Notes under the pieces: model-generated
Database searches by the model: none
Seen by the model: the letters and a program-made list of their open reading frames with translations, nothing else
What the model was told of the DNA's origin: nothing
NCBI RefSeq assembly: GCF_002088975.1
Contig: NZ_NCST01000037.1
Span: 1 to 64,000 of the forward strand
Reading direction: 5' to 3'
DNA from: Henriciella aquimarina
Lineage (GTDB): Bacteria; Pseudomonadota; Alphaproteobacteria; Caulobacterales; Hyphomonadaceae
DNA: 64,000 nucleotides
Program-made: the position numbers and the translations under genes
Shown here: one piece after another, positions 14,394 through 33,194 of the stretch
Numbering within the stretch: the first letter of the stretch is position 1
Layout of the letters: each line of letters starts with the position of its first letter

Positions 14394-14401
14394 CCCGCCC
14401 T

Positions 14402-15107: not shown

Positions 15108-15116
15108 CGCCTGCAT

Positions 15117-15141
15117 GGCGGCCTGGGGCCACCAGGCCGCC
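15117..15141 (+). terminator. GC-rich hairpin after the YHS gene
   Basis: GGCGGCCTGG at 15117-15126 pairs perfectly with CCAGGCCGCC at 15132-15141 across a five-base loop. It is ten bases beyond the stop and has no T-run, so it may end or stabilise the transcript. Confidence 0.5.
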
Positions 15142-15169
15142 GCCTTACCCCAATTTCCGGAGAAGACAG

Positions 15170-15631
15170 ATGCGCAAGCCTGTTCCCCCATTCACCCTGG
15201 AAACCGCCATTGAGAAAGTCCGCCTCGCAGAGGATGGCTGGAACAGCCGGGACCCCGGCAAGGTGGCGATGGCCTATTCGACCGACAGTCTGTGGCGCAA
15301 CCGCCGGATGTTCGTCTCCGGACGCTGCGAGATTGTGCGCTTCCTGGAATGGAAATGGCGCCAGGAGCATGAGTATCGCCTCGTGAAAGAGCTGTTTGCC
15401 TTTCAGGAGAACCGCATCGCGGTGCGCTACGCCTATGAGTTTCACAATGATGAAGGCGCCTGGTTCCGGGCCTATGGCAACGAGAACTGGGAGTTTGACG
15501 CCGACGGCCTCATGACACGCCGCTATGCAAGCATCAACGACCTGCCCCTCCGCGAGGAAGAGCGTCTGCTTTACTGGCCGCTCGGGCGCCGCCCCGACAC
15601 TTATCCCGGCTTGAGTGAGCTGGGATTGTAG
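15170..15631 (+). CDS. DUF1348-family NTF2-like protein
   Basis: 153 aa matching the DUF1348 pattern: [54 protein letters not shown] and the ending [14 protein letters not shown]. The fold is SnoaL/NTF2-like; the molecular function is unknown. GGAGAAG precedes the ATG. There is no signal peptide, in contrast to its exported neighbours. It lies 28 bases after a hairpin and may be cotranscribed with the YHS gene or be separate. Confidence 0.9.
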
Positions 15632-15704
15632 CGATCCGGTTCATGCAGGCTAAGTCCACACGCCCGATCCGCCAGACCTATTGAACAAGTAAAAGAGACA
15701 GAGA

Positions 15705-16994: not shown

Positions 16995-17158
16995 TCCCGA
17001 AAGGACAATTGGCTGCACCTACAAAGATCTGACGCCGGCCATTCGGCACGAACTAAAAAATTCGCATTCGGCGCACAAACAGGATACACACTATGGAATT
17101 TGAGAAACTTTAAGAGAAAATAGCTTTCATTCTGCATTTTTCGAAATAAACTATCCGC

Positions 17159-17641
17159 ATGAGTGAAGAACTGTCGTTATTTGATATCAAGATCCTTGAA
17201 CAGCTCCAGAAGGACTGTTCGGTCTCTACCGTCGAGCTCGCCGAGATTGTCGGCCTGTCCCAGTCGCCGTGCTGGCGCCGCCTGCAGCGGCTCAAGGATG
17301 AGGGCTACATCAAGTCCCAGGTCGCCATTCTCGACCGCGAGAAGCTCGGTTATGGCCTGCACATCTTCGCCTATGTGAAGGTTGCAAAGCTTTCGGAAAA
17401 AGAACGCGACACCTTCATGCGGAAAATCCAGACCACGCCGGAAATCCTCGAATGCTATTCCATTTTCGGCGAGATGGACCTGCTCATGAAGATCCAGGCC
17501 AAATCGATGAAGTGGTATCAAGAATTCCTGATGGATTTTCTGCTCAACCTGCCCGGGGTAGACAGCGTGAACTCGACGGCGACCCTGGGCGAAATCAAGT
17601 CCACCACCGCCATCCCGGTGCGGGGCAATGTGGCGCTCTAG
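17159..17641 (+). CDS. Lrp/AsnC-family transcriptional regulator
   Basis: 160 aa with the N-terminal helix-turn-helix (LAEIVGLSQSPCWRRLQRLK, about residues 27-46) and the C-terminal RAM ligand-binding domain (ILECYSIFGEMDLLMKIQAK, and VNSTATLGEIKSTTAIPV). Lrp proteins sense amino acids and control amino-acid uptake and breakdown. Its place among peptidases, PLP enzymes and an amino-acid permease suggests that it controls this locus. Its stop overlaps that of the convergent amidohydrolase gene (CTAG). Confidence 0.95.
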   Translation: MSEELSLFDIKILEQLQKDCSVSTVELAEIVGLSQSPCWRRLQRLKDEGYIKSQVAILDREKLGYGLHIFAYVKVAKLSEKERDTFMRKIQTTPEILECYSIFGEMDLLMKIQAKSMKWYQEFLMDFLLNLPGVDSVNSTATLGEIKSTTAIPVRGNVAL

Positions 17642-20214
17642 GCCCTCCGGGGCCTGCGCCCGAGCGCGAAGCCCAGGGCACCGGCAAGAATGACGACGAG
17701 CCCGCCGAGCAGCCACGTCCCCCATCCGGCTCTAGCGCTCGCGGCCTTCGCAGTGCCGGGCGCATGCGCCATGCATTCAACCTCGAGCGGCGCACCAAGC
17801 GCCAGACCGTCAGCGCCAAAGGCACTCCGGGCCGGCATCTTTCCCGCCTTGAAATAGGTCTTGTAGACGGTGTTGAAGGCGGGCCACTGGTCCATATCGT
17901 CGATCATGACAGTGCATTTGAAGATGTCCGACATGTCCGCATCCGCACGCGTGACCAGGGCCTTGATGGAGTCCATCGCCTGGCGGGCATCGGCCTCGAA
18001 GCTTTCGCCGCCCCGCCCGATCTGCCCGGAAAGATAGAGCACATCGCCGACGCGGACAGCCGCCGAGAAAGGGAGCGTGTCGGCGTCGACCGGCTCCCCA
18101 TCCATCAGCATAGGGAAGTGCTCGACCGCGCTGTCCGGACGGCCTTCATAACGGATCGGTTCTGCCGTTTCGGGGGCATCGGAGGCGTCCAACACCGCTG
18201 GCGGGGTCGCGAAGGGCTCAATGCTGAGCGCGGCATAGATCTCGGCTGGTAAGTAGACATCGCCATCCTTCGCGACGAGGCGCGGCTTGCGAATTGCCGA
18301 GAGGTTTTCCAGAGGGTTGCCACCGATCAGAATGAAATCGGCAAGCTTGCCGGCCTCAAGCGTGCCGCGGTCCTCGCCATAGCCTAAATAGCGCGCCGGC
18401 CCCAATGTGCCCAGGCGCAGGACATCGGCGGTGGGAATGCCGGCTTTCTCGTAGAGTTCCAGCTCACGATGAACCGTGAAGCCCGTACCGTCATCGGTTC
18501 CGGGCAGGAGCTGGATACTGGAGTCATGCAACAGTTTCAGCGTCTCCAGCACGCGCTCGAAAGCCTCGACATAGGCCTGATCGGTCGCGTCATCCTCAAG
18601 CGTCACGAAACTACGCTTGCGATAGCGCTGATACCCGATGGGCATGTGCGAGAGATAAGGCTTGTCGCCTTCCTGTACCTTACCCGCCCGGCTCAACATC
18701 AACCGCTCCAGGATCACGGCTGTCGGGTCGGTCCCGACCTCATGCGCCTGCATCAGCCCGATGGTCTCGCTGACCTTGTCGGAAGCAAGATCAAGCTCGG
18801 CGGCACGCTGCATACCTGTGAGACGCAACGGGGTGCGCGTATCCTCGTCAGGGTCAAGAAGCCAACCGAGCATGAGCTGATTGAGGTGGGTGATCTCGTC
18901 ATAGCCCGCCCGGATCATTTCATTGGCATTGGTGAAGGCTGGCACGTGGCCGATCACCCGCATGCCATGCGCCTTGGCCCGGTCTGCCATGGCGGGAATC
19001 CAGTCAGGATTCATCGAGTTGTAGATCTTGATGAAGGGGTAATCGCGCGCAGCGTACCAGTCCACGGCATCCACGGCCTCTTCCTCGCTGGCGGCAATAA
19101 TGCCGTGACGTGCCGAATACGGACTACGCCCCTCGATGAAGCCAGCCGGAGTAATGCGCGGACCAACCAGTTGCCCGGTTTCGAGTTTTTCCATCAGCCC
19201 AGTCAGGAAGTCATTGTCATTGCCCATGTCCCGGGTGGAAGTGACGCCCGCAGCGATATAATAGAGCCCGGAGGAGAGCGAGGCATGCGAGTGCACGTCC
19301 CAGAGGCCCGGCATCAACGTCCCGCCCGCCCCGTCATAGACCGTCATCCCGTCTGGATAGTCGGCAGCGGGTAACCAGGCCTCGATTCGTGCAATCCGGT
19401 TGTCTTCGATTACCACAGTAGACGGCTCCCCCAGTTCGCCAGCGACGGGGTCCAGGATACGAACATTGGCAATTGCCCACGGGCCATCGAATGTATGGCG
19501 GATCGTCCCGGCAAGCTCTTCGGCCCACGCAACCTTGAGATCGCGGGCAAGCTCCATGAGATCGCCGGCAAGCGCCTCATATCCCTCACGCACCATGGCC
19601 GAGGATTCCGAGAAGCCGGCAAAGAAAGCGCCCTCAGCATCCAGCGCGATCAGCGATGGGCCAAGATCGATTCCGGAAAGTCGGTATATGTCGAGAGAGA
19701 CCGTCTCACCTCCAACGGAGAGTTCGGTTTCATCGGCCTGTGCGAGGGACAGCGTCCCGGCCGGCAGGACCGGCATGGCCGTGCGGTCATTCTCCAGCAT
19801 GGCGCGGGCATAGACATAGTTCGCCCACGGACTTCCGTCATTGACGGCATAGAGGGCTGGCTCGGAGACGACCTTCTCGCCGCTATCGGCCTGACTTTTC
19901 CAGGTCGCGACACCGTCCTCAAGATGGAAGACCTCTTCGACCGGGCTGCCCATCAGCGAGGTGCCTTCTATCTGCCACTCGACCGGGATGTCCGCCTCAT
20001 CAAGGATGATGCGCTCATCATGTTTCGGGCCACGGCCATTGCTGTCGACATAATATTCGACGGTCTCGGTCCGGTCATCCTGGTCGATCTTCAGGTGGCC
20101 GACATTCTCACCATTCCGGATAAGGCTGTAGGCATAGTCCTGAGCGTTCGCGCCCTGCGCGACCAACAGGCCCGAGCAGAGCGTCGCCGCAAGCTTCTGG
20201 AGTGTGCATCTCAT
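17638..20214 (-). CDS. Exported amidohydrolase-RidA fusion with C-terminal membrane anchor
   Basis: 858 aa. A signal peptide (cut after ANAQ, residue 24) leads to an N-terminal beta-rich domain (to about 235). A metal-dependent amidohydrolase follows: PGLWDVHSHASL (HxH, about residues 312-323), Lys in PFIKIYNSM, RVIGHVPAF, DEITHLNQ and Asp in LLPGTDDGTG. Residues about 710-825 form a RidA/YjgF domain: VLYLSGQIGRGG, TRADADMSDIFKCTVMIDDM and PARSAFGADGLALGAPLEVE. A closing helix (LLGGLVVILAGALGFALG) with a basic tail would anchor it. RidA enzymes hydrolyse enamines/imines. The ATG overlaps the upstream S10 gene by four bases. Confidence 0.9.
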   Translation of the reverse strand: MRCTLQKLAATLCSGLLVAQGANAQDYAYSLIRNGENVGHLKIDQDDRTETVEYYVDSNGRGPKHDERIILDEADIPVEWQIEGTSLMGSPVEEVFHLEDGVATWKSQADSGEKVVSEPALYAVNDGSPWANYVYARAMLENDRTAMPVLPAGTLSLAQADETELSVGGETVSLDIYRLSGIDLGPSLIALDAEGAFFAGFSESSAMVREGYEALAGDLMELARDLKVAWAEELAGTIRHTFDGPWAIANVRILDPVAGELGEPSTVVIEDNRIARIEAWLPAADYPDGMTVYDGAGGTLMPGLWDVHSHASLSSGLYYIAAGVTSTRDMGNDNDFLTGLMEKLETGQLVGPRITPAGFIEGRSPYSARHGIIAASEEEAVDAVDWYAARDYPFIKIYNSMNPDWIPAMADRAKAHGMRVIGHVPAFTNANEMIRAGYDEITHLNQLMLGWLLDPDEDTRTPLRLTGMQRAAELDLASDKVSETIGLMQAHEVGTDPTAVILERLMLSRAGKVQEGDKPYLSHMPIGYQRYRKRSFVTLEDDATDQAYVEAFERVLETLKLLHDSSIQLLPGTDDGTGFTVHRELELYEKAGIPTADVLRLGTLGPARYLGYGEDRGTLEAGKLADFILIGGNPLENLSAIRKPRLVAKDGDVYLPAEIYAALSIEPFATPPAVLDASDAPETAEPIRYEGRPDSAVEHFPMLMDGEPVDADTLPFSAAVRVGDVLYLSGQIGRGGESFEADARQAMDSIKALVTRADADMSDIFKCTVMIDDMDQWPAFNTVYKTYFKAGKMPARSAFGADGLALGAPLEVECMAHAPGTAKAASARAGWGTWLLGGLVVILAGALGFALGRRPRRA

Positions 20215-21728
20215 TCTGGGTTTTCTCCTGTCTCATCGGCGAGCCCTGCCGCGATGAAATCGTATATCCGGTCTGCGAAAGGCGTTCTGAGAGCGTCCTC
20301 GTCGAAAGGCGAATGCCCGGAGGCCATACGCACAAGCGACACACGCGCCTGCGGCAGGCCGGCATGAGTGAGTGCATATTGCGTTTCCAGCACCGGCACG
20401 GCGAGGTCACGATAGCCGCCGAAAACGAGCAGATGGACATTTTCATTCTCGCTCATGAAGGCATCGACCATCGGCATGGCGTTGACGCTGAAGACCGGAG
20501 CCTTGTCCTGCGGCCGCCAGTCCCAGGCAAAATTGGCATCGAGATTGAGCGAGCGATAGCCATCCTCCCGCTCAAGCCCGGTCATCCTCTCGAGATAAGT
20601 GCCGATGTCCGCGGCTATGATCTTGTTGGACTTGCCGAGCCCCAGCGACGGATCGTTGGCGCCATCCGGGCGGTCGGGATTGGCCGGCGGGCGCTTCTCC
20701 TGTGTCACGGCCGTGTTCAGCCGGCTGACCAGGCGGTTTTCGTCCGCCAGCACGCCCTCCAGGAAATCCTGGATATTCACGCGCAGATCGGACGCCTCGA
20801 CAAGATCCTTGTCCAGCCCTGTCATCGCAGCGATCTTCCCGGCAAGTCGTTCGCGAACCGTCTCGTCGAGACGGTCACCCCGCTGCAGAGCGACGAGATA
20901 GTCGCTCTCTGCGAAGGCGCGCGCAGTCTCCCAGGCTTCGGCTTCGGTGTCGGCCTCGATCGAAGACTGGCCGAAGCGCCAGGCGGTCGCGGCCATGGTC
21001 GGCAGGGCGAAGACATGGCCCATATCGCCTGCCCGGGCCCCGGCATTCAGCATGGGCGAGACCATGACCAGGCCCTCGACCTCAAGGTCGCCCAGGGCCG
21101 GCAGAAGATTGGCCAGACGAAAGCCCCCATAGCTCTGGCCTGTCACAAAGACCGGCGCACCCTCCCGGTCATGGGCCTTGAGCCAGTCATGGATGAAGGC
21201 GCCTACAGCCTCGGCATCGCCATGCACGCTCAGATACGGACTGTCGCCTGCCGTCGAGGCCGCACGGCTGAAGCCGGTCTCGACCGGATCCACGAGGACA
21301 AGGTCGGCTGCTCGTAAGATCGTGTCCGGATTATCCGGAAAGCTTGCCGCTCCATCGGTCTTCTCACGCGCGTGCGGGCCGAGCGCGAAATGCAGCGGCG
21401 ACGAGGAGGCGCCAGGCCCGCCATTGAACAGGAACATGACGGGCCGCTCATCCGGGGGACATTCGCATTCGCGAATATAGGCCGTTCCCGAGATGGTCGA
21501 GGCAGCCCCCGCGCCATCGCGATCCAGCACGAGGCTGTCCCAATGGGTATGATAGCGGATCGTATCGTCGGCATGGCGGTCACTGACAGAGAAGACCTGA
21601 CCATTCTCGACATGCGTCCAGTCAGGAGCGGCTTCTTGCCCGATAGCCAGATGAGCGGTGCTCAGAAAAGTGCAGGCCATGCCAGCAGCGATGGCCGGAC
21701 GCGTCAGGGCAAGAGGCGAAATCTTCAT
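20211..21728 (-). CDS. S10-family serine carboxypeptidase-like peptidase (copy 1)
   Basis: 505 aa with a signal peptide (to about residue 30) and the S10 alpha/beta hydrolase core. RPVMFLFNGGPGASSSPLHF is the oxyanion region, VLVDPVETGFSRA follows, and FVTGQSYGGFR carries the nucleophile serine (about residue 203). Asp in LLVFGGYRDLAVP and His in MASGHSPFDEDALR complete the triad. S10 enzymes release C-terminal residues from peptides. It is upstream of, and overlaps, the amidohydrolase-RidA gene by four bases. Two paralogues lie nearby. Confidence 0.93.
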   Translation of the reverse strand: MKISPLALTRPAIAAGMACTFLSTAHLAIGQEAAPDWTHVENGQVFSVSDRHADDTIRYHTHWDSLVLDRDGAGAASTISGTAYIRECECPPDERPVMFLFNGGPGASSSPLHFALGPHAREKTDGAASFPDNPDTILRAADLVLVDPVETGFSRAASTAGDSPYLSVHGDAEAVGAFIHDWLKAHDREGAPVFVTGQSYGGFRLANLLPALGDLEVEGLVMVSPMLNAGARAGDMGHVFALPTMAATAWRFGQSSIEADTEAEAWETARAFAESDYLVALQRGDRLDETVRERLAGKIAAMTGLDKDLVEASDLRVNIQDFLEGVLADENRLVSRLNTAVTQEKRPPANPDRPDGANDPSLGLGKSNKIIAADIGTYLERMTGLEREDGYRSLNLDANFAWDWRPQDKAPVFSVNAMPMVDAFMSENENVHLLVFGGYRDLAVPVLETQYALTHAGLPQARVSLVRMASGHSPFDEDALRTPFADRIYDFIAAGLADETGENPE

Positions 21729-21929: not shown

Positions 21930-23192
21930 ATGAAGCTCACACGACGCGATGCCCTTGGCCTGACAGCAGCAGCCCTTGCAGGATCAACGGCCTGCCGCGG
22001 GGCCGGAACAGCGGCGGCCATGCCGGCAGGCCCGCAGACAGGATCGGCATCGGCCGCCCTGCCCGACCTGCAGAATTTTTCTCTTGGCCGCACGGTCTAT
22101 CTGAATGCCGGCTCGCAGCATCCGATCAGCAAGCCGGCCCGCGCCTCGATCGAAGCCTATCTGGATCACCGCGCCCACATGGCCCCGAACGACGCGTATG
22201 ATCTCGGCAGCGATGCAGCGATCGAGAAGTTCGCTCGACTCGTCAACGCGGACCCGGACGAAGTGACATGGGTGCAAAGCACCACGGCAGGCGAGCAGAT
22301 GATCGTTCGCTCCCTCGGCCTGCCCGAACAGGGAGCAAAGGTGGTCACCGATACGCTGCACTTCTTCGGTTCCTTCCCCCTCTATGGCGAGCTTGAGCGC
22401 CAGGGTTGCGAGGTCGCTTGGGTGGAAGCGAAGGATGGACGGATTTCCCTTGAAGACATGGATCGCGCGATCACGCCGGGGACCAGGCTTGTCTCCCTGT
22501 CGCTGGTCTCCACCATCAACGGCTTCGAGCATGACCTGAAGGCCGTGTGTGACCTGGCGCATTCCCGCGGAGCGCTTGTCTATGCCGACATCATCCACGC
22601 CGCCGGCTGCGTGCCTGTGGATCTGCACGCCAGCGGCGTCGATTTCGCCGCGACAGCCAGCTATAAATGGCTGATGGGCGACTTCGGCCTCGGCTTCCTC
22701 TATGTCCGCAAGGGCGTGATGGATCAGCTGAGGCGGACCAATTACGGCTATTACGGCATCAGCCAGTTCGCCACGCATATGTACCCACACGATGCGCCGG
22801 GCGATGAGCTGGTGGAATACAGCTTCGCCGACAATGCTTCAGGCTGGTTCGCGCTCGGCACACATTCCCACACCGTCATCGCCCAGCTGAACGCTTCGCT
22901 CGATTACATCCTCGACCTCGGCGTGGAGACGATACAGGCGCATGCCCAGGCGCTGACCTCACGGCTGAAGGAAGGGTTGAAATCTCAAGGCTTCGACCTG
23001 CTCACGGGGGATGACTTCCAGACCCCGATCGTCACTGCCATTTATGAAGATGCCTACAAGCGGCTCGGCCCGGTGATGAAGGAGCGGGGCATCGTTACCA
23101 CGCTCTCACGCAACCGCTTCCGTCCGACGGTGTCGGTCTTCAACACGATGGATGATGTCGACGCCTTCCTGGAGGCTGTCGGCACTGCCTAG
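21930..23192 (+). CDS. Exported class V aminotransferase-fold PLP enzyme
   Basis: 420 aa. A twin-arginine-like signal begins MKLTRRDALGLTAAALAGS. The fold is that of NifS/isopenicillin N epimerase relatives: VYLNAGSQHPISKPAR, WVQSTTAGEQMIVRSLGLP, VYADIIHAAGCVPVDL (PLP-binding Asp region) and the Schiff-base lysine in TASYKWLMGDFGLGFLYVRK. Relatives include desulfurases, epimerases and lyases; the reaction is not known. A Tat signal fits a PLP protein exported folded. It is the only plus-strand gene inside the run of minus-strand peptidase genes, and is divergent from S10 copy 1. Confidence 0.88.
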   Translation: MKLTRRDALGLTAAALAGSTACRGAGTAAAMPAGPQTGSASAALPDLQNFSLGRTVYLNAGSQHPISKPARASIEAYLDHRAHMAPNDAYDLGSDAAIEKFARLVNADPDEVTWVQSTTAGEQMIVRSLGLPEQGAKVVTDTLHFFGSFPLYGELERQGCEVAWVEAKDGRISLEDMDRAITPGTRLVSLSLVSTINGFEHDLKAVCDLAHSRGALVYADIIHAAGCVPVDLHASGVDFAATASYKWLMGDFGLGFLYVRKGVMDQLRRTNYGYYGISQFATHMYPHDAPGDELVEYSFADNASGWFALGTHSHTVIAQLNASLDYILDLGVETIQAHAQALTSRLKEGLKSQGFDLLTGDDFQTPIVTAIYEDAYKRLGPVMKERGIVTTLSRNRFRPTVSVFNTMDDVDAFLEAVGTA

Positions 23193-24778
23193 TCGGCTGT
23201 CAGGAAAGCACGGAGGTCATCGGCAAAGGCCTCCGCCGTCCCGCCCAGATAAAGCATGTGGCCGGAGGTATAGTCCTCGAAGCGGACACGCTCCCGGGGG
23301 ATATCCGCGCTTTCGATCTGTGCCTTGGCCTCGGCGGGCGTCGTGACGAGGTCATAATAGCCCGAGGCCACGAAGAGGCGCAGGTCCGGATTGCGCCGCA
23401 TGGCAATGGCAAGGTCGACAGCGAAGCTCTGCCCCGGCGGGATCGCGCGGCGTTGCCAGTTCCAGCTCTGCAGGAGGTCCTTCCAGTAAATCGCCTTGTA
23501 GGGCCGCGGAAGCCGCACCTCGAGATCGTCACGCAGCATCTCGTTGAAGGCGGCGACAAAGCCCGGCACGTAGCGGGTCATGGCTGGATCGTCAGCCACC
23601 GGATCGTTTCCGGAATTGGCGAGGGGCAGTGTGTAGCGGCTGTCATACATGCCGACTTCAAGGCCCTGCCCGTCCAGGACAAGCTTTGCGAATTCCCGCT
23701 CGCTTATGTGGAGATCTTCACCAATCTTATCAGCAGAAAGCCCGATCATGCGGGTGAGTTCCGACATCACGGACTGGCGCTCTGCCTCGTCCAGCATGCC
23801 CTGCTGCCGCTTCAGAAGCGCAGCCTTGTAAGGGCCATAGGCATAGGCCGATGCCTGACTGTAGATCTCGTCTGCATCCCCCTCGAGCGCAGACTGGCCA
23901 TGATACGCCGCCGTCACAGCGAGCCCAGGCAAAGTGCGCGCCTGCCGGGCCGCAATATCGCCGGCGGGCTTCTCCGCGCCTTCTTCCGCGCGCGCGCCCA
24001 GGGTCGTGCCAAGCAGGACGATCCCGTCCAGCGTAATCCCGCGCATGACCCCGTTATAGATCGGGCTGCCCATCAGGAAGCGCGGCAGGACCGCGGCCCG
24101 CATCGTGCCATAGCTTTCGCCGAGCACGTATTTCGGCGAATTCCAGCGCCCGTGTTCGCTCAGCCAGAGCTCGATAAACTGGGACATGGCTTCGGCATCT
24201 TCATCCACACCCCAGAACCGCTCCGGGTCCACTCCTTCTGCGGGACGGCTGAAGCCCGTCCCCACAGGATCGATGAAAACGAGATCGGCCACATCGAGAA
24301 CCGTGGCCGTATTATCCTGAAGCCCGAATGGCGGGACATTGGACGGGTTCACTTCCGCATCCAGCACCACCTGCTTCGGCCCGATCGCCCCCATGTGAAT
24401 CCACAGCGAGGCCGAGCCCGGCCCACCATTGAAGATGAAAAGGACGGGACGGTCCGGGTCGTCCACATCGGTACGCAAATAGGTAAAGGTGAAAATCCGG
24501 GCCGTAGGATCGCCGGAAAGATCCGTCAGCAGGGTCTCACCCGCGATGGCATCATAGGCAATGCGCTCGCCATTCGCGACCAGCGTGTGATGGGTCACCT
24601 TGCGGTAAGCCGTCTCCACGTCGCGGGCGGGCGCTACCCTTTCGTCGGCGGCCTTGCTCTGGGCCTCCTGGGGCGAAGACGTCGCGAGATCGTAATCCTG
24701 CGCGTTCGCACAGCCCGCCAGCGTCATGAGGCCCAACGCCAGGAAACGGCCAGTTTTCAACCGGTCACGGATGCTCAT
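23189..24778 (-). CDS. S10-family peptidase lipoprotein (copy 2)
   Basis: 529 aa with a lipoprotein signal (lipobox LAGC near residue 23). Core motifs are RPVLFIFNGGPGSASLWIHM, VFIDPVGTGFSRPAEG, nucleophile serine in YVLGESYGTMRAAV (about residue 222), Asp in FVASGYYDLVTTPAE and His in YTSGHMLYLGG. It should be a periplasm- or surface-facing carboxypeptidase. It shares GESYGTMRAA with copy 3 and differs more from copy 1. Its ATG overlaps the stop of the upstream cyclodeaminase-like gene by four bases, and its stop overlaps that of the convergent PLP enzyme. Confidence 0.93.
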   Translation of the reverse strand: MSIRDRLKTGRFLALGLMTLAGCANAQDYDLATSSPQEAQSKAADERVAPARDVETAYRKVTHHTLVANGERIAYDAIAGETLLTDLSGDPTARIFTFTYLRTDVDDPDRPVLFIFNGGPGSASLWIHMGAIGPKQVVLDAEVNPSNVPPFGLQDNTATVLDVADLVFIDPVGTGFSRPAEGVDPERFWGVDEDAEAMSQFIELWLSEHGRWNSPKYVLGESYGTMRAAVLPRFLMGSPIYNGVMRGITLDGIVLLGTTLGARAEEGAEKPAGDIAARQARTLPGLAVTAAYHGQSALEGDADEIYSQASAYAYGPYKAALLKRQQGMLDEAERQSVMSELTRMIGLSADKIGEDLHISEREFAKLVLDGQGLEVGMYDSRYTLPLANSGNDPVADDPAMTRYVPGFVAAFNEMLRDDLEVRLPRPYKAIYWKDLLQSWNWQRRAIPPGQSFAVDLAIAMRRNPDLRLFVASGYYDLVTTPAEAKAQIESADIPRERVRFEDYTSGHMLYLGGTAEAFADDLRAFLTAD

Positions 24779-25728
24779 ATCCCCACCCTCGCCTTTTCAA
24801 AGATGAATGCTGCGGCTGCGATATCCTGTACGATATGGCCGAGCGAATTGTAGATGGTGATGCCGTCGTCCCTGAGGCGTCCTTCGACGTTGCCAAGCAG
24901 GACCTCGCCGATCTCGCCCACGAGATGGCTTTCGTCGACGATCCCTGTCTTGATGGCGTGGCGCAACTCCGCGCCCTGGGCAAGAACGGACTCCCGTGAA
25001 TCCGCAAAGAAGCGGCTGCCGGCGACAAGGGCATCGTCGATCTCGCGCGGACCGTCAAAGCTGGAGCCGACCAGATTTATATGCGCGCCGGGTTTCACAC
25101 AGGCTGCCGGCAGGACAGGCTCCTGCGCAGCGGTAACCGTGCAGATGATATCCGCGCCGACCACCGCCTGTTGCACCGACGTGCAGGCCAGGACGTCGAT
25201 ACCGGTTTCGGCAACCAGCCGGTCCGCCAGTTTTTCCGCGTTCTCATGGGTACGCCCCCAAAGGCGTATTTCACCGATGTCGCGCACTTCCAACATGGCG
25301 AGAGCATGGTGGTAGGCCTGCTCTCCCGTGCCGAGGATGGCAAGGTCCCGGGCGTCCGTGCGGGCGAGGACGTCCGTGGCCATGGCGCTGGCACTTGCGG
25401 TCCGGATCGCTGTAATGGCTCCGGCCTCGGCCTGACAGGCCGGCGCGCCGGTGTCCGGATCAAACAGGATCACAACACCCTGATGCGATGGAATGGCGGG
25501 GTCGGTGCGTTCCGGAGTGACGCTGACCAGTTTCGAACCCCAGGCGCCGCCGGGCCCCATCGTGCCAGCCATGACCCCGAACATGCGGCCATGATCAAGC
25601 GGCAGGATATTCCGCAACATCTGCTTTGTTTCGCCAGCCGATAGCTTAGCCATCGCCTCGCGCATGACCGTGATGCCATCACGATAGGACAGCAGGTCTC
25701 GGATACGGTCCGGGTCGATCAGGATCAT
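24775..25728 (-). CDS. Ornithine cyclodeaminase/mu-crystallin family protein
   Basis: 317 aa from the ATG at 25728, preceded by AGG at about eight bases; an in-frame TTG lies two codons upstream. Motifs include HQGVVILFDPDTGAP, EAGAITAIRTASASAMATDV, the Rossmann loop LAILGTGEQAYHHALAM (about residue 132) and ADIICTVTAA. The family includes ornithine cyclodeaminase, alanine dehydrogenase and ketimine reductases, all acting on amino acids or cyclic imines. It has no signal peptide. Its place beside peptidases suggests it handles imported amino acids. Confidence 0.92.
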   Translation of the reverse strand: MILIDPDRIRDLLSYRDGITVMREAMAKLSAGETKQMLRNILPLDHGRMFGVMAGTMGPGGAWGSKLVSVTPERTDPAIPSHQGVVILFDPDTGAPACQAEAGAITAIRTASASAMATDVLARTDARDLAILGTGEQAYHHALAMLEVRDIGEIRLWGRTHENAEKLADRLVAETGIDVLACTSVQQAVVGADIICTVTAAQEPVLPAACVKPGAHINLVGSSFDGPREIDDALVAGSRFFADSRESVLAQGAELRHAIKTGIVDESHLVGEIGEVLLGNVEGRLRDDGITIYNSLGHIVQDIAAAAFIFEKARVGI

Positions 25729-25745
25729 CGGCAAGCCTCGCGCTG

Positions 25746-27298
25746 CTAGTCGTCAGCGCCCCAATTGTCAGCACCTTCGATCCAGGCGCGAATGTCGTTT
25801 CCGAATGCCACCGCCGACTCATCGATCGAATAGGCCATGTGGCCCCCCGGATAGAAGCTGAGCTTCACCCTGTCCTTCGGCCAGTCGGCCTGGGCGGCCA
25901 GATAGGTTGCAGCTCCGACCGTCGTCATTGTGTCGTGATAGCCATTCCCGATCAGCAGGCGGAAATCCGGATTGGCGGAGAAGGCGCCGTCGAGACGGTC
26001 GCTGTAATCATAGTGGCCAAACGGCGAAGACGCACCCCAGCCCCAGGCATTGAGGCCGCCGACATCGGCAATCGTCTTGTAGCGGTCGTCGATTTCCAGG
26101 CCGAACACATCCGAGACGTAAGCCTTGAAGGCCGAAAGATACGCCTCCTGGAGCACGCCGGAGGCGTCGCGCTTCGGATCCTGGCCGACATAGCGCCCGT
26201 CACTGCGGCCGAGCACCTTTCCCTCATCCTTGAGGAGTTCCACGCGATAGGCCTGCTTGGTGATGCGTAGGCGGTTGTCGAGATAATAGTCAGCCGAAAT
26301 GCCCGTATACTCTTCCAGCTTGGCCGCGACGCGGCGGCGTTCGTCCTCGCCCAGCCGGTTGCCCTGAAAGAGAGCGAGCAGATAGTCGGTCTCTCCAAAC
26401 GCCGTTGCATCCGCCATGAAGGCGTCGAAACTGCGCCCTTTGGCTTCAACCTTGCCCTGCTCCCAGCCCATCGCCGCCAGCGTTGGTACTGACACGGCAT
26501 AGCTGATGATGTTCTGCGGACGTTGGGAATATTCGATGATGTTGACGGCCTGCCCCATCAGGAAGACGCCCTCTGCCGGCGGCGGCCCGCCCTCTTCGGC
26601 CATCTGGCCGGCGGCTTCCGCCGCACGCATCGTGCCGTAGCTTTCCCCGAGGATGAAGACCGGAGCGTCATCGCGCTCATGGCGCTCCAGCCAGGCATCG
26701 ACGAAGGCCACGAATTGCGCAGCATCGGACTGGATCGAGAAATAATCGGCCGGAGCGCCCCCCTCGTCCACACGGCTGAAACCGGTCGATGCCGGATCGA
26801 AGAATACAAGGTCGGCCACATCCAGCGGTGAAGCGACATTATCGACCAGCTCGAATTCCTCCGCCGGGGCGGTCAGGTTGTCAGGCGCCGACACCCGTTT
26901 TGGGCCCACCGCGCCAATATGCAGCCAGAGAGACGCGCTGATGGGACCGCCATTGAAGACGAAGAGACCGGGCGGTTCTTCTCTTCGGTTTCCGCAACAT
27001 AGGAAAAGGCCGCCAGATCGACATCCGCCAGGTCATCCTTGCCGGGGATATCGAACGTTTCCAGACGCGCCACGTAATCCACGGCCTGACCACCGAAGAC
27101 GCCATGGCGGGTGAGCTCGCGCTCAAGCCCCTCGGGCTCTTCAGCCGTGGCCGGCCCGGAGGGATCGGCGTGCATAGGCTGCGCCGCACAGGCGCCGATT
27201 GCCAACATGCCGGCAAGACAAGCGGCCAGCCGGCCGGAGACCTTGCTCCGAACCGGCCAGCCCTGCGAGGGACGCTCTGTCATCAATGCCCGTTTCAT
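25746..27298 (-). pseudogene. S10-family peptidase (copy 3), broken by a one-base deletion
   Basis: The upstream part (26873-27298) has a lipoprotein signal (lipobox IGAC) and runs to VAETEEKNRPV, then goes out of frame. The rest continues in another frame with AVGPKRVSAPDN, LVFFDPASTGFSRVDEG, the nucleophile serine in FILGESYGTMRAAEAA and His in YPGGHMAYSIDE. In the minus-strand sequence CCGGTCTCTTCGTCTTC one C appears lost: CCGGTCCTCTTC would restore PVLFVFNGGP. All catalytic residues survive, so this is a recent mutation or an assembly error. Its start overlaps the TonB-receptor stop by one base (TGATG). Confidence 0.85.
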
Positions 27299-30200
27299 CA
27301 GAAGCGGATATTCATACCTGCGAAGTAACGCCGACCGAGAATATCGCCATGGGTCAGCGTTGGATAGGACGGTAGCTCATCGGTGAAATTGGTCACGCCA
27401 GCCCGGAAAGTCACACCATTCTCGAAAGAATAGAGCGCCGAGATTGAGTGGGTGATGTTGGAGTCGATGACAGGATTGGGATTGTTTTCGATCGTCGCGC
27501 CTTCTTCGGCCTTCACGCCATCGAGATAATCCAGCTGATAGGTCAGCCGCAGCGGACCGTTGGAATAGACCGCATCAAAACGTGCCGTCCAGTCCGGTTG
27601 CTCGACCGTGTTGTCGGTCCGGTTGAAGGTCGTGCCGGTTACCGAGGTCGACAGCTTCGAAGTATGGGTGGCCTCGACACCAAGCGAGAGATTGCCGGCG
27701 TCGGTGCCCGTCAGGTCCGCGATATCGAACGCGTAGTTCAGATAGTAAACCTCGCCCCGGAAGACGATTTCCCCGGCATTGAAGGTTGTCTCGCGACCAG
27801 TAACGACCGTGCCCGGCGGGTTGGAGCCGTCGGCCGTCTGCAGCCGCGTGAAGACGGAGCAGATATCGGCCGGTTGCGGCTCGCTGTCATAGCAGGTCGC
27901 CATGAAGTCGCCATTGGTGAAGGCCGAGAGCCCGTTCTCGAGATCGATTTCGATCCGGTCGGCAGAGAAGGTCAGGCCCGGCACAAAGAGCCGATCAATG
28001 ACGAGACCATACGTCGTCGTATCGGAGACCTCGTTCTCCAGGTCCGGGTTACCGCCCGAGGTCACTGCCGTAAGCGAGAAGTTCTCAGCCGGATCCTGGA
28101 AGGTGGCGAGATCACCATATTGCGGGTTGGCTGCCCATTCGGCCTCACAATTCGCGCGGCGGATCGCCGGATTTGGCCCCGCATTGATACGGTCGGCATC
28201 GCACGGGTCGATCCCGGCATTGGTGACGGTCACGGTCGTCGGCGCGAAGAGCTGTGTCAGTGTCGGTGCGCGGAAGTTGCGGCTGCGCGTTGCCCGCAGG
28301 GTCACACCGTCGAAGGGCTCCCACCGTGTGCCGACGCTCCAAACAGATTCCTCGCCTGCGATGGAATTGTCGACATAGCGGTACGTCCCGTCGAATTCGA
28401 GCGTCTTCACGCCAGGAAGCGTGAAGTCACCTCCAAGGACCGGAACGAGCAGCTCGACCGAGACTTCGTTCGTATTATAATCCCCGGATGTCGGCACTTC
28501 CTGAGTACCGGTGCCGAACAGGCCCTGCTGGTTGGCCGGCAAGGGAGTGAAGCTCGCTTCCTCCCGGCGGTGCTCATAGGCGAAGACCGCATCGACACCG
28601 CCCGCAGGCAGCTGGAACAGCTCTGTGCCCATCGTTGCTAGGATATCGATCTGCTCATTCGTATAGTCGCTGCCCGCGCGAACCGAGACATAATCGGTGG
28701 CCGCCTGGCTTATATTGCCCGCCCCAAACGGGTTGAGCGGCGCACAGTTTGGATCGTCGTTCGACGGATCAGCATCGACATTGATTGCGCAAACGATATT
28801 GCCACTGCCGTCATTGACGGCATTGAGCGCCTGGTTGAACAGCGTGGTGTTCGCTTCCCAGCGGCGCTGCTGGCCTTCGACTTCCGCATAGCTGCCGGAA
28901 ACCGTCCAGTAGAAATTGCGCCCGGCTGCGTCGAAATCCCCTTCGAGACCGGCAAGCGCACGCCAGGTCCGGGTATCGTTTTCCTGATAATTGCTCGGGA
29001 AAAGATCATTGTAGAAATTGCGCGACAGCCAGAGCGGTGCCCCAGCGGCAAACCCCGGATTGGCCTGGCTCAGCGTATCGATGGCATCCTGGCTGAGGAA
29101 GGGATTGTTGCTGGTGAACATGATCGCGCCGAGGGCAGGATCGGTCTGGTTCAACACGCTGCGTGCGGTGCCCTGCGGCACGCTTTCACCCTTGGTATCG
29201 GCGAAGGTAAACTCACCCTTCAAGCGCAGATTGGGCGAAAGGTCATAGTGGCCGACAACATTGCCGACGAGCCGCTCAACCCCGGTTCGAAGACCGGCGA
29301 GATCACTGTAACGTGTGCCATCCCCACCTTCGGCAAACGGAATGCCGAGGATATTGCCCGGATTGTAGGGCACGACCGAGCCGTCCGGCGAGAATTGCAG
29401 CGGCGTGCCATTCGCCCTGGCGAGGAAGTTTGGCGGCGGGGCCGGCGCAGTGAAGACCACCCCATTGCCGTTGAAGTTCCAGAAATAGGCCGGGATCACC
29501 TCCTGAAGAGACGGGATGCCGTCATCCGGTCCGGTATCGGCCGGATTGCCCTGGGTGATGCGGGACCGGTTCGACGCTTCGAAATCAGAGAACCGCACGA
29601 CCGGCGTCTTCGAGGTCTCGACATTGACGGCGATATTGCCGCGGCCACTGTCGAAATTCCGGCCCGCGGTAATGCGGGCAGAATGGGTCGGGTATTCGCC
29701 ATTTTCGGCGTTGCCCACCTGGGCGTCGACCTCAAGTCCTTCGAAATCGTCCTTGAGGATGTAGTTGATCACGCCGGCAATCGCGTCCGAGCCGTAGACG
29801 GCCGCGCCACCCGCCTGAACGACCTCGATCCGATCGATCAGCCCCGTCGGGATGACATTGGCATCGACCTGCGCATCACCGAGGCCATTGGACGTCGTCA
29901 CGAAACGGCGACCGTTGACGAGGGTGAGTGTGCGCCCTGTTCCGAGGCCGAAGAGTTCCGGAAATTGCTGGCCCGAGCCTGAATCCGAGCCGTCGCCCGC
30001 CGCCTGATTGAATTTCGGGCGCAGCGAAGTGATTTCGTTGAGCGCGTCTGCGGCATTGAGCAGACCCCGGTCAGCGAAGTCCTGCTGGCCGAATGTCGTG
30101 ACGGGGGCCGCTGTCGAGGCCACTTCGCGGCGGATACGCGAACCGGTGATGACGACGGTATCCATCGTCGCCGTCTCATCCTCATCGCCAGCTTCAGCCG

Positions 30201-30321
30201 GCAGCGTCTCGATCTCGTCTGCCTGCTCCTGCGCATGGGCTGCCTGCAAGCCCATAGCCGGAACCAGCGCCACCATGGCGCAGCTGCCCAAAAGACCTTT
30301 GAAAATCGCTTCCCGTTTCAT
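27298..30321 (-). CDS. TonB-dependent outer membrane receptor
   Basis: 1007 aa. Signal peptide to about residue 30 (ending AHAQ). A TonB box (DTVVITGSRIRR) is followed by the plug domain with TLVNGRRFVT, DRIEVVQAGGAAVYGSDAIA and GVINYILKDDFEG. A large beta-barrel closes with GDILGRRYFAGMNIRF. This architecture (oar/CirA-like, long loops) often imports peptides or oligosaccharide fragments. It heads the operon with S10 copy 3, the cyclodeaminase-like gene and S10 copy 2, so peptides are the likely cargo. AAGGGG precedes the ATG. Confidence 0.95.
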   Translation of the reverse strand: MKREAIFKGLLGSCAMVALVPAMGLQAAHAQEQADEIETLPAEAGDEDETATMDTVVITGSRIRREVASTAAPVTTFGQQDFADRGLLNAADALNEITSLRPKFNQAAGDGSDSGSGQQFPELFGLGTGRTLTLVNGRRFVTTSNGLGDAQVDANVIPTGLIDRIEVVQAGGAAVYGSDAIAGVINYILKDDFEGLEVDAQVGNAENGEYPTHSARITAGRNFDSGRGNIAVNVETSKTPVVRFSDFEASNRSRITQGNPADTGPDDGIPSLQEVIPAYFWNFNGNGVVFTAPAPPPNFLARANGTPLQFSPDGSVVPYNPGNILGIPFAEGGDGTRYSDLAGLRTGVERLVGNVVGHYDLSPNLRLKGEFTFADTKGESVPQGTARSVLNQTDPALGAIMFTSNNPFLSQDAIDTLSQANPGFAAGAPLWLSRNFYNDLFPSNYQENDTRTWRALAGLEGDFDAAGRNFYWTVSGSYAEVEGQQRRWEANTTLFNQALNAVNDGSGNIVCAINVDADPSNDDPNCAPLNPFGAGNISQAATDYVSVRAGSDYTNEQIDILATMGTELFQLPAGGVDAVFAYEHRREEASFTPLPANQQGLFGTGTQEVPTSGDYNTNEVSVELLVPVLGGDFTLPGVKTLEFDGTYRYVDNSIAGEESVWSVGTRWEPFDGVTLRATRSRNFRAPTLTQLFAPTTVTVTNAGIDPCDADRINAGPNPAIRRANCEAEWAANPQYGDLATFQDPAENFSLTAVTSGGNPDLENEVSDTTTYGLVIDRLFVPGLTFSADRIEIDLENGLSAFTNGDFMATCYDSEPQPADICSVFTRLQTADGSNPPGTVVTGRETTFNAGEIVFRGEVYYLNYAFDIADLTGTDAGNLSLGVEATHTSKLSTSVTGTTFNRTDNTVEQPDWTARFDAVYSNGPLRLTYQLDYLDGVKAEEGATIENNPNPVIDSNITHSISALYSFENGVTFRAGVTNFTDELPSYPTLTHGDILGRRYFAGMNIRF

Positions 30322-30481: not shown

Positions 30482-30495
30482 GGAATATTTATTCC
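30482..30495. promoter_or_regulatory. 14-bp palindrome upstream of the TonB receptor
   Basis: GGAATATTTATTCC is a 6-2-6 inverted repeat that overlaps the permease stop codon and lies about 160 bases upstream of the TonB-receptor start. AT-rich palindromes of this type can bind Lrp-family or other dimeric regulators. A related GGAAAATCCATTCC is at 21796-21809, between the divergent S10 copy 1 and PLP-enzyme genes. Function is inferred. Confidence 0.3.
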
Positions 30496-31847
30496 GTACC
30501 CGCTTTTGTTTCCCCTGCGGCGCCCTGTTCCGACAATGCCGGCTGCCCGAACCTCCGCGCGAAGCCATAGTAAAGAACGCCCAGGAGCGCCCAGCCGGCG
30601 AGCAGGAGATAGGGCCGCCAGTCAGCCGACCAGCCAAGCACGATGATCAGCCCGCCCAGCAGGATCCCGGCCACGGCGAAGCCTTGCAGGACGTGGCGCG
30701 ACGGCCTGAAGGCCGAAGCGGCGTGCAAGTCGGGCTGCCGCTTCAACAGCATGATTGAGGACAGGCACGTGGCCGCGTATTTCAGGATGGTCGGAATGTT
30801 CACTGCCAGAAACAGGAAGACGAGATTGTCCGGCATGAAGAGGCCGAGACAGCAAAGCAGGAAGGCGACCAAAACGGCCGGACGCGGCACACCGCTATTC
30901 TCGTGCACGCGCGCAAGAGCGCCTGGCAGCATGCCAGCCCGCGCCATCGCATAGAGAAAGCGCGACATGATGATGAAGGTCGCATTGATCGAGCTGCCGA
31001 TTGCCACGGTTGCGCTTATCAGGATAAGCCAGCGTCCCGGTTCGCCGAGAGAGACAATCGCGGCATCCAGCAGAGGCGCCTCGGAGGCCGCCAGCCCCTC
31101 GCCCCCAAGCACGCCTATGGCGGCAAATGCCACGATAAAATAAACCGCTGCCGTCAGCAGGACGGAAATGGTTATGCCGAGCGGGATGGTGCGTCCCGGA
31201 CGGGTTACTTCTCCGCCCACCTCTGTCGCGCTTTCTATGCCAAGGAAGAGAGAGATCATCAGCGGAATCGCCGCAAGCACCCCCGCGGTGCCGTGGCTGG
31301 CGAAAGGCTCGAAACGCTCCATGGAAATCGACGGCACGCTGCCGAAGGCGAAAACGGCACACGTCGCCAACAGGATGAACAGCATGATGGACTGGCTGAT
31401 CGTCGCCGCCGAAACCCCGATCAGGTTGACCGCAAGCACGAAGACCAGAATGGCCAGCATGGTCGGCTTCAGGGGAACATCGATCGCGGTCCCGAGATAG
31501 GAGACCAGAACCATGGTCAGGACAATGACCGCCGCCGTACTGCCCGCAATCCTGAGCCAGCTTATAAGGAAGCCGAGGAAGGGGTGCACGAAGCGGCGTG
31601 GCCACTCAAAAGAGGCCCCCGTGACAGGCACGGCCGCCCCCATGAAAGCATAGACGACGCCAAAAACAATCATCGGCACCATGGCAAACAGCATGGAAAC
31701 CAGCATGGCCGGCCCGGCGAGGGCAGCGGCCGGCGCCAGGATAGAAAAGACCGAGACCCCGATTGCTGTTCCCAGGCCAAGCGCCACCACCCCTGTCACG
31801 CCGACGGTGCGCTTCAGGTCACTGGCTGTTTCGGGCAATCTTGCCAT
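30489..31847 (-). CDS. APC-family amino acid permease
   Basis: 452 aa with about 12 hydrophobic segments. The N-terminus has the APC pattern VTGVVALGLGTAIGVSVFSI, and FLGIESATEVGGEVTRPGRT is the conserved cytoplasmic loop with P-G-R-T. Such carriers import amino acids by proton or sodium symport. The start overlaps the stop of the aminotransferase gene by one base (TGATG), so uptake and transamination are likely coupled. It lies upstream of the TonB receptor on the same strand. Confidence 0.93.
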   Translation of the reverse strand: MARLPETASDLKRTVGVTGVVALGLGTAIGVSVFSILAPAAALAGPAMLVSMLFAMVPMIVFGVVYAFMGAAVPVTGASFEWPRRFVHPFLGFLISWLRIAGSTAAVIVLTMVLVSYLGTAIDVPLKPTMLAILVFVLAVNLIGVSAATISQSIMLFILLATCAVFAFGSVPSISMERFEPFASHGTAGVLAAIPLMISLFLGIESATEVGGEVTRPGRTIPLGITISVLLTAAVYFIVAFAAIGVLGGEGLAASEAPLLDAAIVSLGEPGRWLILISATVAIGSSINATFIIMSRFLYAMARAGMLPGALARVHENSGVPRPAVLVAFLLCCLGLFMPDNLVFLFLAVNIPTILKYAATCLSSIMLLKRQPDLHAASAFRPSRHVLQGFAVAGILLGGLIIVLGWSADWRPYLLLAGWALLGVLYYGFARRFGQPALSEQGAAGETKAGTE

Positions 31848-33067
31848 CAGGCGATCCGCTGGCTTTCGGCATATTTCTGCTGATACTCGCTAAGCCCGGC
31901 AGCCAGCCGCTCAAGCCCCTTGCGCAGCTCTGCCTCTTCCAGTGCATAGCCAATGCGGACATGACCGGCCATGCCAAAACATTCTCCCGGCACGACCACC
32001 ACGCCGTGCCGCGCAATCAGCCAGCGCGACAGCGCCATTGTGTCGCCGATTCCGACGACTTTCGGGAAACAGGTGCAACCCTCCACCGGAAGCGCAATTT
32101 CGATCAGCTTCCGGGCGGCCATGTCCTCGAACGCTGCTTCGGCAATCGGGCGGGCTGTCTCCATATGCCCCACCCGCCAGGCATCATAGGCCGGCGCACG
32201 GGCCAGAACTTCGGCCGCGACGGAATGGGAAAATTTCGAGACCGAGAAATCCACCCGGTCGCAATGCGCCTTGAGCCGCGCCATTGTCTCGCCCGCCGCG
32301 AACAGCCAGCCACAGCGCAACGTGCTCAACCCGAAGATCTTCGTCATGCTGCCGATACGGACGACGTTCGGATACTGTTCGGGATCCAGGCCCGGCACCG
32401 CTCTTTCATGATAGTCGCGATAGACCTCGTCCACCAGCAGGTAGACATCCCGCTTTCGCAGCGCCTCGGCGAGGCGGGCGAGCTCGTCGTCGGGAACGAG
32501 CGCGCCGCTTGGGTTGTGCAGATTGCTCACCACAACCATGCGCGTGCGGGATGTCAGTTGCTGCAACACCATGTCGGTGGAAAGGGAAAAATGCGGGGCC
32601 TTGCGCTCGAAAAACGCGGTCTCCATTCCGGCATCGTCAGCATAATTCGCGAAGATGTCGAAGCCCGGACGCTCGACCAGAACCTGATCACCCCGGTTCA
32701 GAAGGGCTGGATAGGCAAGCTGTACGGCAGAAGTTGCGCCGGTGGTGCAATGGATATTGCGGACCGGCATGGCGTAACGCTCTGACAATCGCACCGCCAG
32801 GTCCGGATTGCTGCGCATGAAGACGCTCTGATAGCTTGCCGGCACGCCATGCCTGAAAGCCTGCGAGACGGTGTCGGCCAGCATCGCGGTTGGCTCGCGG
32901 ACAGAACTTTCAAAGAGCCCGATCTTGCCCGGAGCGCCACTGCGTATCAGGCCGAGCGCATCGCGCACCCAATGGGCATAGCTGACCCAGCTTACCTCAT
33001 CCGTTTTCAAACCCGGTGCATCCACTTGTGCTGATCCCATTTCTGCCATCCGGCCTGGACCGGACAT
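31847..33067 (-). CDS. Class I/II PLP-dependent aminotransferase
   Basis: 406 aa from the ATG at 33067. Starts at 33049 and 33040 are also possible, and a longer open frame to 33241 is rejected because it would run into the next gene. Fold-type I motifs are CTTGATSAVQLAYPALL (cofactor phosphate site), VVVSNLHNPSGALVPDDEL (NPxG), VYLLVDEVYRDYH (Asp-x-x-Tyr) and Lys in RIGSMTKIFGLSTLRCGW. The C-terminus has GHVRIGYALEE. It would transaminate an imported amino acid; the substrate is unknown. There is no signal peptide. Confidence 0.9.
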   Translation of the reverse strand: MSGPGRMAEMGSAQVDAPGLKTDEVSWVSYAHWVRDALGLIRSGAPGKIGLFESSVREPTAMLADTVSQAFRHGVPASYQSVFMRSNPDLAVRLSERYAMPVRNIHCTTGATSAVQLAYPALLNRGDQVLVERPGFDIFANYADDAGMETAFFERKAPHFSLSTDMVLQQLTSRTRMVVVSNLHNPSGALVPDDELARLAEALRKRDVYLLVDEVYRDYHERAVPGLDPEQYPNVVRIGSMTKIFGLSTLRCGWLFAAGETMARLKAHCDRVDFSVSKFSHSVAAEVLARAPAYDAWRVGHMETARPIAEAAFEDMAARKLIEIALPVEGCTCFPKVVGIGDTMALSRWLIARHGVVVVPGECFGMAGHVRIGYALEEAELRKGLERLAAGLSEYQQKYAESQRIA

Positions 33068-33194
33068 CTCAACCCGGACGACATTACGCCCGACCGGGAG
33101 ATTTTTTATGCAAAGGCCCCAAGGCGGAGCCGCCAACGCGCATAAATGTTCTGCATCGGCGTCTGGCGTATACAGGCCTTTCCCCGCGTGTTTC

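Follow-up and report, generated by a model that had tools for sequence, protein, structure and literature searches.

Positions 17,638 to 20,214 of a 64,000-nucleotide stretch of Henriciella aquimarina DNA (contig NZ_NCST01000037.1, positions 1 to 64,000; hereafter the window) hold a reverse-strand gene that encodes, in one uninterrupted frame, an amidohydrolase fused to a RidA domain. Work on RidA has largely concerned its role in guarding the cytosol from reactive enamines. The fusion protein begins with a predicted signal peptide, and its gene lies in a conserved cluster with genes for several peptidases and for a class V pyridoxal phosphate (PLP) enzyme with a leader of the twin-arginine translocation (Tat) type (Table 1). 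We propose, with a probability of about 0.57, that the cluster encodes a periplasmic peptide-catabolic module in which the PLP enzyme would produce an imine or enamine for hydrolysis by the RidA domain. Pfam profiles recognized both enzyme domains of the fusion, with 58.1 bits for Amidohydro_1 (PF01979; residues 320–644; cut-off 25) and 80.9 bits for Ribonuc_L-PSP (PF01042; residues 715–817; cut-off 27.3). This confirmed the arrangement given in a preliminary description of the locus, in which a signal peptide and amidohydrolase are followed by a RidA domain and a C-terminal helix. As a fusion open reading frame of this kind was found in eight further genomes, the fusion is real and not due to chance. 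An AlphaFold2 model of the whole protein, built from a seven-sequence alignment, had a mean predicted local distance difference test (pLDDT) score of 78. The N-terminal mostly-beta domain, present in all seven amidohydrolase rows compared, and the amidohydrolase domain were modelled confidently, the RidA part was modelled at lower confidence (block means 43–76) with its strands and helices following one another as in RidA, and residues 678–716 and 822–858 were of low confidence.

The distribution of the fusion was examined in 299 genomes of the order. This search resulted in 18 matching genomes at E ≤ 1e-190, including Henriciella sp. (L019) and Hyphomonas oceanitis (L020), where L numbers denote loci and G numbers, used below, genomes. 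In half of these matches (9/18), that of the window among them, a single frame extends across the RidA domain, and all nine fusion genomes are Hyphomonadaceae, the family to which the window belongs. The best tblastn segments of the eight other fusions are 54–71% identical to the window sequence. Among 398 genomes of the phylum, four matches were obtained at E ≤ 1e-180 and only that of the window was fused. Other large RidA fusions were sought in 120 phylum genomes; among the matches listed, the frames in G338 (1422 amino acids) and G400 (564 amino acids) were rejected as read-through over other genes. A quick tree built from 35 amidohydrolases, with duplicate loci left out, placed the nine fusions inside a clade of 12 (Shimodaira–Hasegawa-like approximate likelihood ratio test, 99), with two changes needed. 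One gain and one loss in three genomes would fit this tree, on which gain and loss are indistinguishable by count. The C-terminal helix, previously described as a membrane anchor, is present in the window protein (residues 834–852) and in four of the nine fusions in all, each from the genus group of the window, and the other five proteins end right after RidA; the anchor is thus not a feature of the fusions in general.

The preliminary description had pointed to an active-site arginine in the sequence KMPARSAF. This residue, R796 (in MPARSAF; Arg105 in TdcF), is kept in all nine fusions, as are Ser729, Asn781, and Glu811 of the RidA pocket. In the same nine proteins, Tyr17 is replaced by Phe716 and Cys107 by Ala798; for the pocket positions we take Ser30, Asn88, and Cys107 to be the RidA numbering. 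According to the section of PMC4433059 covered, Arg105Ala nearly abolishes RidA activity, replacements of Tyr17 and Glu120 in Salmonella RidA have little effect, and Phe is a conservative replacement of Tyr17, so that F716 agrees with the family description "Tyr17 or conservative Phe" in nine of nine fusions. With the NCBI subfamily model TIGR00004 (Rid family detoxifying hydrolase), the window RidA domain scored 74.7 bits, below the cut-off of 106.25, and it is therefore not assigned to that subfamily. In eight comparisons with the window protein, identity ranged from 63 to 81% for the RidA domain, 59 to 80% for the amidohydrolase, and 7 to 57% for the linker, with RidA identity at least equal to that of the amidohydrolase in seven and lower in one (L058). 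The proportions of nonsynonymous and synonymous differences in the RidA domain gave pN/pS values of 0.06–0.21 (four pairs). These values indicate that the fused RidA domain is under purifying selection, and both enzyme domains look active from their sequences. The two replacements shared by all fusions could also mean that the domain carries out no imine hydrolysis and serves the amidohydrolase as a trimerization or ligand-binding module. We consider this improbable, given that the pocket Arg, Ser, Asn, and Glu are kept, that stand-alone exported relatives share the PAR motif yet have no partner domain, and that Tyr17 and Glu120 tolerate replacement in the Salmonella enzyme.

All 35 amidohydrolase rows compared retain the metal-ligand set of the amidohydrolase domain (H308, H310, K396, H423, H443, and D574), and we take these residues to fill the roles of the HxH, Lys, His, His, and Asp positions of this enzyme type. 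A fold search with the model returned 9kov_D (Z 34.9, root-mean-square deviation 2.6, 326 aligned), 3be7 (Z 33.5), 3mtw (Z 33.2), and 8ihq (Z 31.6). In its modelled fold, the amidohydrolase part most resembles enzymes that release amino acids. It shares its fold (model residues ~242–673) and metal-ligand set with the L-Lys/L-Arg carboxypeptidase Cc2672 (3mtw), a Thermonema amidohydrolase (9kov), the ochratoxin hydrolase ADH3 (8ihq), and prolidases; it differs from them by its extra N-terminal beta domain and, in the nine fusions, by the RidA domain. No RidA structure appeared among the 50 matches shown, as the larger amidohydrolase domain fills those rows. The model for Caulobacter-type Xaa-Pro dipeptidases (NF051886) gave 87 bits with the window amidohydrolase, below its cut-off of 500.

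Among the genes surrounding the fusion, 4-base overlaps occur at four of six checked junctions. The preliminary description had set the Tat-exported PLP enzyme (PLPV) beside the fusion; it is a member of the cluster, and the S10a gene lies between the two. In the genomes with a fusion, the cluster homologues are 46–94% identical, or 38–39% in the case of a short S10c fragment. Parts of the gene set were also found in further families of the order, as well as in Novosphingobium PP1Y (L165), Roseateles (L021), and Stenotrophomonas (L022), and homologues of the permease, the class I/II aminotransferase, and the two M61-like peptidases are found in several clusters. YheO-like PAS/HTH regulators adjoin the clusters L022 (6388–7374, Pfam-checked) and L021 (3851–4717). 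The ornithine cyclodeaminase (OCD) family protein matched 4bv8 with 176 bits, its likeness to mu-crystallin and ketimine reductase (4bv8, 2i99) being one of sequence. The S10c gene is split at 26873–26909 and its Henriciella homologue (L019, 2752–4395) is a single frame, which suggests a frameshift or an assembly error. Outside the cluster, the window encodes an isochorismatase-family protein with a signal-peptide-like leader (13572–14393) and a beta-lactamase-family protein that ends in a hydrophobic stretch (15705–16994). A promoter scan yielded 2 sites, compared with 3.5 in shuffled sequences.

Table 1. Features of the fusion gene and its cluster in the window.
Feature	Coordinates	Strand	Remarks
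Amidohydrolase-RidA fusion (P0001)	17638..20214	-	uninterrupted frame, 858 amino acids
Predicted signal peptide, residues 1-25	20140..20214	-	by eye
N-terminal mostly-beta domain, residues 26-240	19495..20139	-	from model; no Pfam match
Amidohydrolase domain, residues 246-660	18235..19479	-	H308 H310 K396 H423 H443 D574 kept
Variable linker, residues 677-714	18073..18186	-	low model confidence
RidA domain PF01042, residues 715-817	17764..18072	-	F716 S729 N781 R796 A798 E811
C-terminal hydrophobic helix, residues 834-852, then tail RRPRRA	17659..17715	-	from sequence
Lrp/AsnC-type regulator	17159..17641	+	convergent with fusion gene
S10-type serine carboxypeptidase S10a	20211..21728	-	signal peptide by eye; 4-base overlap with fusion gene
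Class V PLP enzyme PLPV	21930..23192	+	Tat-type leader; conserved in cluster
S10-type peptidase S10b	23189..24778	-	lipoprotein-like leader by eye
OCD/mu-crystallin family protein (ketimine-reductase-like)	24775..25734	-	profile and structure-sequence matches
Third S10-type peptidase S10c	25746..27298	-	two frames in this assembly
TonB-dependent receptor	27298..30321	-	
Amino-acid permease	30489..31847	-	
Class I/II aminotransferase	31847..33241	-	
M61-like peptidase	33195..34817	-	
Second M61-like peptidase	35117..36886	+	

Export signals were assigned by eye and with a home-made signal-peptide rule. The rule was passed by 38 of 39 distinct homologue rows of the fusion's amidohydrolase, 35 of 47 S10b-like, 38 of 53 S10a-like, and 7 of 10 TonB-receptor rows, and by none of the 18 OCD or 13 Lrp rows. 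It performs poorly on Tat-type leaders (4 of 15 PLPV rows), and among Rid rows it wrongly placed a signal peptide within the domain in three cases (L126, L128, and L129) and missed L022 and L079, which were called by eye. The signal peptide of the fusion predicts export of its RidA domain, as had been proposed. A PLP homologue is present whole in 22 clusters, namely 11 from Hyphomonadaceae, L067, L021, L022, L164, L165, and L177–L182. Inspection by eye showed a twin arginine followed by a hydrophobic stretch in the window PLPV and in those of 21 of these clusters, L164 being the exception. Excluded from the clusters were L029–L041, L166, and L183 (amidohydrolase without cluster genes) and the short L023, and excluded from the PLPV count were L060 (contig end), L028 (PLPV cut), and L063–L066 and L176 (none found in the region). 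The best PLPV matches are cysteine desulfurases and kynureninase, and our guess from these is a reaction of the beta-lyase or kynureninase type. The window PLPV scored 36.8 bits with the PvdN model NF051467, below the cut-off of 650, and its structural model was poor (mean pLDDT 55). A cysteine recurs just past the Tat leader in Hyphomonadaceae PLPVs, which are perhaps Tat lipoproteins, although a typical lipobox is absent.

Clusters with a close relative of the amidohydrolase were also sought in the family of Stenotrophomonas sp. MMGLT7. Nine of the 297 genomes searched, MMGLT7 included, encode one, and the regions of the other eight were examined. Five of these (L177–L181) share the order S10, amidohydrolase with a signal peptide, PF14588-like Rid protein without one, Tat-type PLPV, RidA with a signal peptide, and M61. 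In L177, the genes for S10a (7294–8796), amidohydrolase (8793–10823), PF14588-like Rid (10820–11347), Tat-type PLPV (11371–12648), RidA (12645–13085), and M61 (13082–14785) overlap by 4 bases at four of the five junctions, RidA/M61 among them. The stand-alone exported RidA gene overlaps the Tat-type PLP gene by 4 bases in all five genomes. Of the remaining regions, L176 encodes the same kind of exported RidA ~4 kb from the amidohydrolase with no PLP homologue found in the region, L182 has the Tat-type PLP enzyme and PF14588-like gene with no exported RidA in the region, and L183 has the amidohydrolase only; in L022, an exported RidA is encoded 3.8 kb from the amidohydrolase. The RidAs of L176–L181 are 55–57% identical to the window RidA domain. 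In a tree of 52 Rid domains, from which 27 PF14588-like Rid rows (Pfam-checked for L021 only) were left out, a single clade of 16, with support of 99/95, unites the nine fused RidAs with the seven exported RidAs linked to clusters and is separate from 36 other rows. The link to an exported PLP enzyme is therefore stronger than could be seen from the window, resting on the overlap in five genomes and on this single RidA clade.

A further cluster was identified on the megaplasmid NZ_CP109486.1 of Streptomyces sp. NBC_01445 (L164, 10925–20285), with consecutive frames for a permease, PLP enzyme, RidA, amidohydrolase, S10, M20-like, and M61-like protein. Its class V-like PLPV (12483–13577), RidA (13588–13974), amidohydrolase (13971–15959), and S10 (15956–17410) all lack signal peptides, and therefore the whole set can be cytosolic, with RidA encoded between the PLP enzyme and the amidohydrolase. 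The amidohydrolase is 49% identical to that of the window, and its gene overlaps the RidA gene by 4 bases. This overlap, together with the physical fusion in nine genomes, is what would be expected if RidA served its own fusion partner, with the amidohydrolase cleaving an N-acyl-enamine or dehydroamino-acid bond and passing the enamine to RidA, and the PLP enzyme catalysing a separate step. A related precedent is the cluster for a putative D-aminoacylase, a D-amino-acid deaminase, and RidA, each of which is required for growth (section of PMC9537276 covered). Against this stand the five Stenotrophomonas-family genomes, where the RidA gene overlaps that of the PLP enzyme but shows no overlap with that of the amidohydrolase, and the nearest solved folds, which are amino-acid-releasing amidohydrolases, with other substrates still conceivable. 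We regard such service to the fusion partner as unlikely, though less so than the binding-module explanation. An exported RidA is encoded in the region of 15 of the 21 clusters with a Tat-type PLP enzyme (nine fused, L022, and L177–L181) and in that of 0 of 1 without (L164). The Roseateles cluster L021 was ruled out as evidence that RidA goes with the PLP enzyme rather than with the amidohydrolase; the first of its two PLP genes, when complete, has a Tat-type leader.

The preliminary description had taken Rid proteins to be normally cytosolic, a premise that fails in this group. A stand-alone Rid protein with a signal peptide or lipobox is encoded in 15 of the 20 distinct genomes surveyed, a proportion that gives no general rate because the genomes were picked for their amidohydrolase (G690 and G691, the same as G018 and G262, were removed). 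None was found in G018, G033, G138, G116, and G689, where all matches were inspected. From their sequences, exported Rid proteins are thus not rare in related genomes. Elsewhere in its genome, the window strain encodes a second stand-alone RidA with a signal peptide (L001, 1276–1845, identical to L042, 7152–7721), which lies outside the clade of the fused RidAs, and RidA-domain proteins that read as lipoproteins were noted in Hyphomonas-like and related genomes (L100–L103, L084, L069, L115, and L118). A phrase search of an open-licence library found no exported RidA; PMC5053998, which in the part covered reports a periplasmic algal RidA, does not contain those phrases. Neither "signal peptide" nor "periplasm" occurs in the main text of PMC4433059, and in an excerpt of PMC12502724 the row for Endoribonuclease L-PSP reads "No" and "N/A" after the accession. 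Exported Rid proteins might accordingly offer general protection, guarding the envelope against stray enamines with no dedicated pathway role. Their frequency in the surveyed genomes, including that of the window, would suit such a function, as would the clusters with a Tat-type PLP enzyme and no exported RidA nearby (6/21). The 19 other exported Rid rows from elsewhere, however, fall among the 36 outside the clade of fused and cluster-linked RidAs, and the overlap of RidA and PLP genes in five genomes also speaks for a pathway role, making general protection improbable.

Several observations weigh against the proposed periplasmic module. Its location is a prediction, RidA is fused to the amidohydrolase and not to the PLP enzyme, the Y17F and C107A replacements may alter RidA specificity, and only four of the nine fusions carry a C-terminal hydrophobic helix that could anchor the protein in a membrane. 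The fusion is missing from three of the 12 Hyphomonadaceae clusters. The Streptomyces cluster is the sole one with a leaderless PLP enzyme, that enzyme is a distant homologue of the window PLPV (29% identity over 190 residues), and its RidA falls outside the clade of fused and cluster-linked RidAs. Six of the 21 clusters with a Tat-type PLP enzyme (L021, L061, L062, L067, L165, and L182) have no exported RidA in the region examined, and therefore RidA is not obligatory. All of their genomes except those of L165 and L182 were surveyed for Rid proteins: no exported Rid turned up anywhere in those of L062 (G138), L067 (G116), and L021 (G689), and that of L061 (G098) encodes a RidA lipoprotein elsewhere. 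A Tat-type RidA-domain protein encoded near the G053 cluster (L028, 1403–2032) lacks the pocket arginine; with its gene on the opposite strand and ~4 kb from the nearest cluster gene, it was not used as support. L177–L181 are close relatives, as are many of the 15 positive clusters, so the independent evidence consists of two exported arrangements, in Hyphomonadaceae and in the Stenotrophomonas family, and one cytosolic arrangement. Overall, the earlier interpretation is partly supported, namely in its three-part architecture, kept arginine, predicted export, and link to the exported PLP enzyme, and the imine chemistry proposed outside the cytoplasm becomes more plausible.

The sequences themselves show how the protein is built, which residues are conserved, that selection is purifying, how the genes are linked, which RidAs share a clade, and which proteins carry export signals; the periplasmic location, the substrate, and each catalytic step of the module are inferred. 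The TonB-dependent receptor would import an oligopeptide or amide. Exported peptidases of the S10 and M61 types, together with the amidohydrolase, acting as an enzyme of the prolidase, Arg/Lys carboxypeptidase, or ochratoxin-hydrolase type, would free an amino acid from it, and this could then be turned into an enamine or imine by the Tat-exported class V PLP enzyme. The RidA domain would hydrolyse that product to a 2-oxo acid and ammonium, and the permease and ketimine-reductase-like enzyme may deal with what enters the cell. Fusion would be the route of RidA export in one lineage, and other lineages would use a signal peptide of RidA itself. A bolder version, to which we give somewhat less than even odds, is that these RidAs are a clade of periplasmic Rid hydrolases dedicated to one pathway and coupled to a class V PLP enzyme exported by Tat, placing the whole step from PLP enzyme through enamine to Rid outside the cytoplasm. 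The set would then take three forms: Streptomyces would have it as an operon for cytosolic proteins, the Stenotrophomonas family as one for exported proteins, and Hyphomonadaceae as an amidohydrolase-RidA fusion, the last perhaps channelling intermediates. If true, PLP-derived enamines would be both made and handled in the bacterial envelope, and the pairing with exported RidA would provide a direct test of the chemistry of exported PLP enzymes and a gene pairing with which such pathways could be found.

On the evidence of its sequence, the fusion sets a domain of the Rid family in a new architecture, is predicted to be periplasmic, and is encoded inside a conserved cluster of PLP enzyme and peptidase genes. 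It shares the pocket Arg, Ser, Asn, and Glu with the Rid family (RidA/YjgF/UK114, PF01042) and differs in its predicted export, its fusion to an amidohydrolase, and its Phe and Ala at the Tyr17 and Cys107 positions. Vallon (1993) is said to have described a periplasmic complex of L-amino-acid oxidase and RidA in Chlamydomonas. The part of PMC5053998 covered cites this algal complex and describes the lao-cccA-ridA operon of Gluconacetobacter diazotrophicus, in which a Tat-type amino-acid oxidase is encoded with ridA. Both resemble the window cluster in pairing an exported imine-making enzyme with RidA, and therefore extracytoplasmic RidA partners are not wholly new. The lao-cccA-ridA operon differs in encoding a flavin oxidase in place of a PLP enzyme and peptidases and in having a separate ridA, and the covered text does not state that the bacterial RidA is exported. 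The Rid fusions described in the covered section of PMC4433059 are tandem Rid domains; its methods mention a search for fusions to other families, and none is described in that section. Tat export of folded periplasmic PLP enzymes is known from PvdN and PtaA of pyoverdine tailoring (PMC6206403, part covered), from which the window cluster differs by its peptidases and RidA and by a PLPV scoring far below the PvdN cut-off. In the ong cluster of Pseudoalteromonas (OngB, OngC, and OngD; PMC9537276, part covered), a putative D-aminoacylase, a deaminase, and RidA are all required for growth, and the substrate is oxidized chitin; unlike the module proposed here, that system is cytoplasmic and encoded by separate genes.

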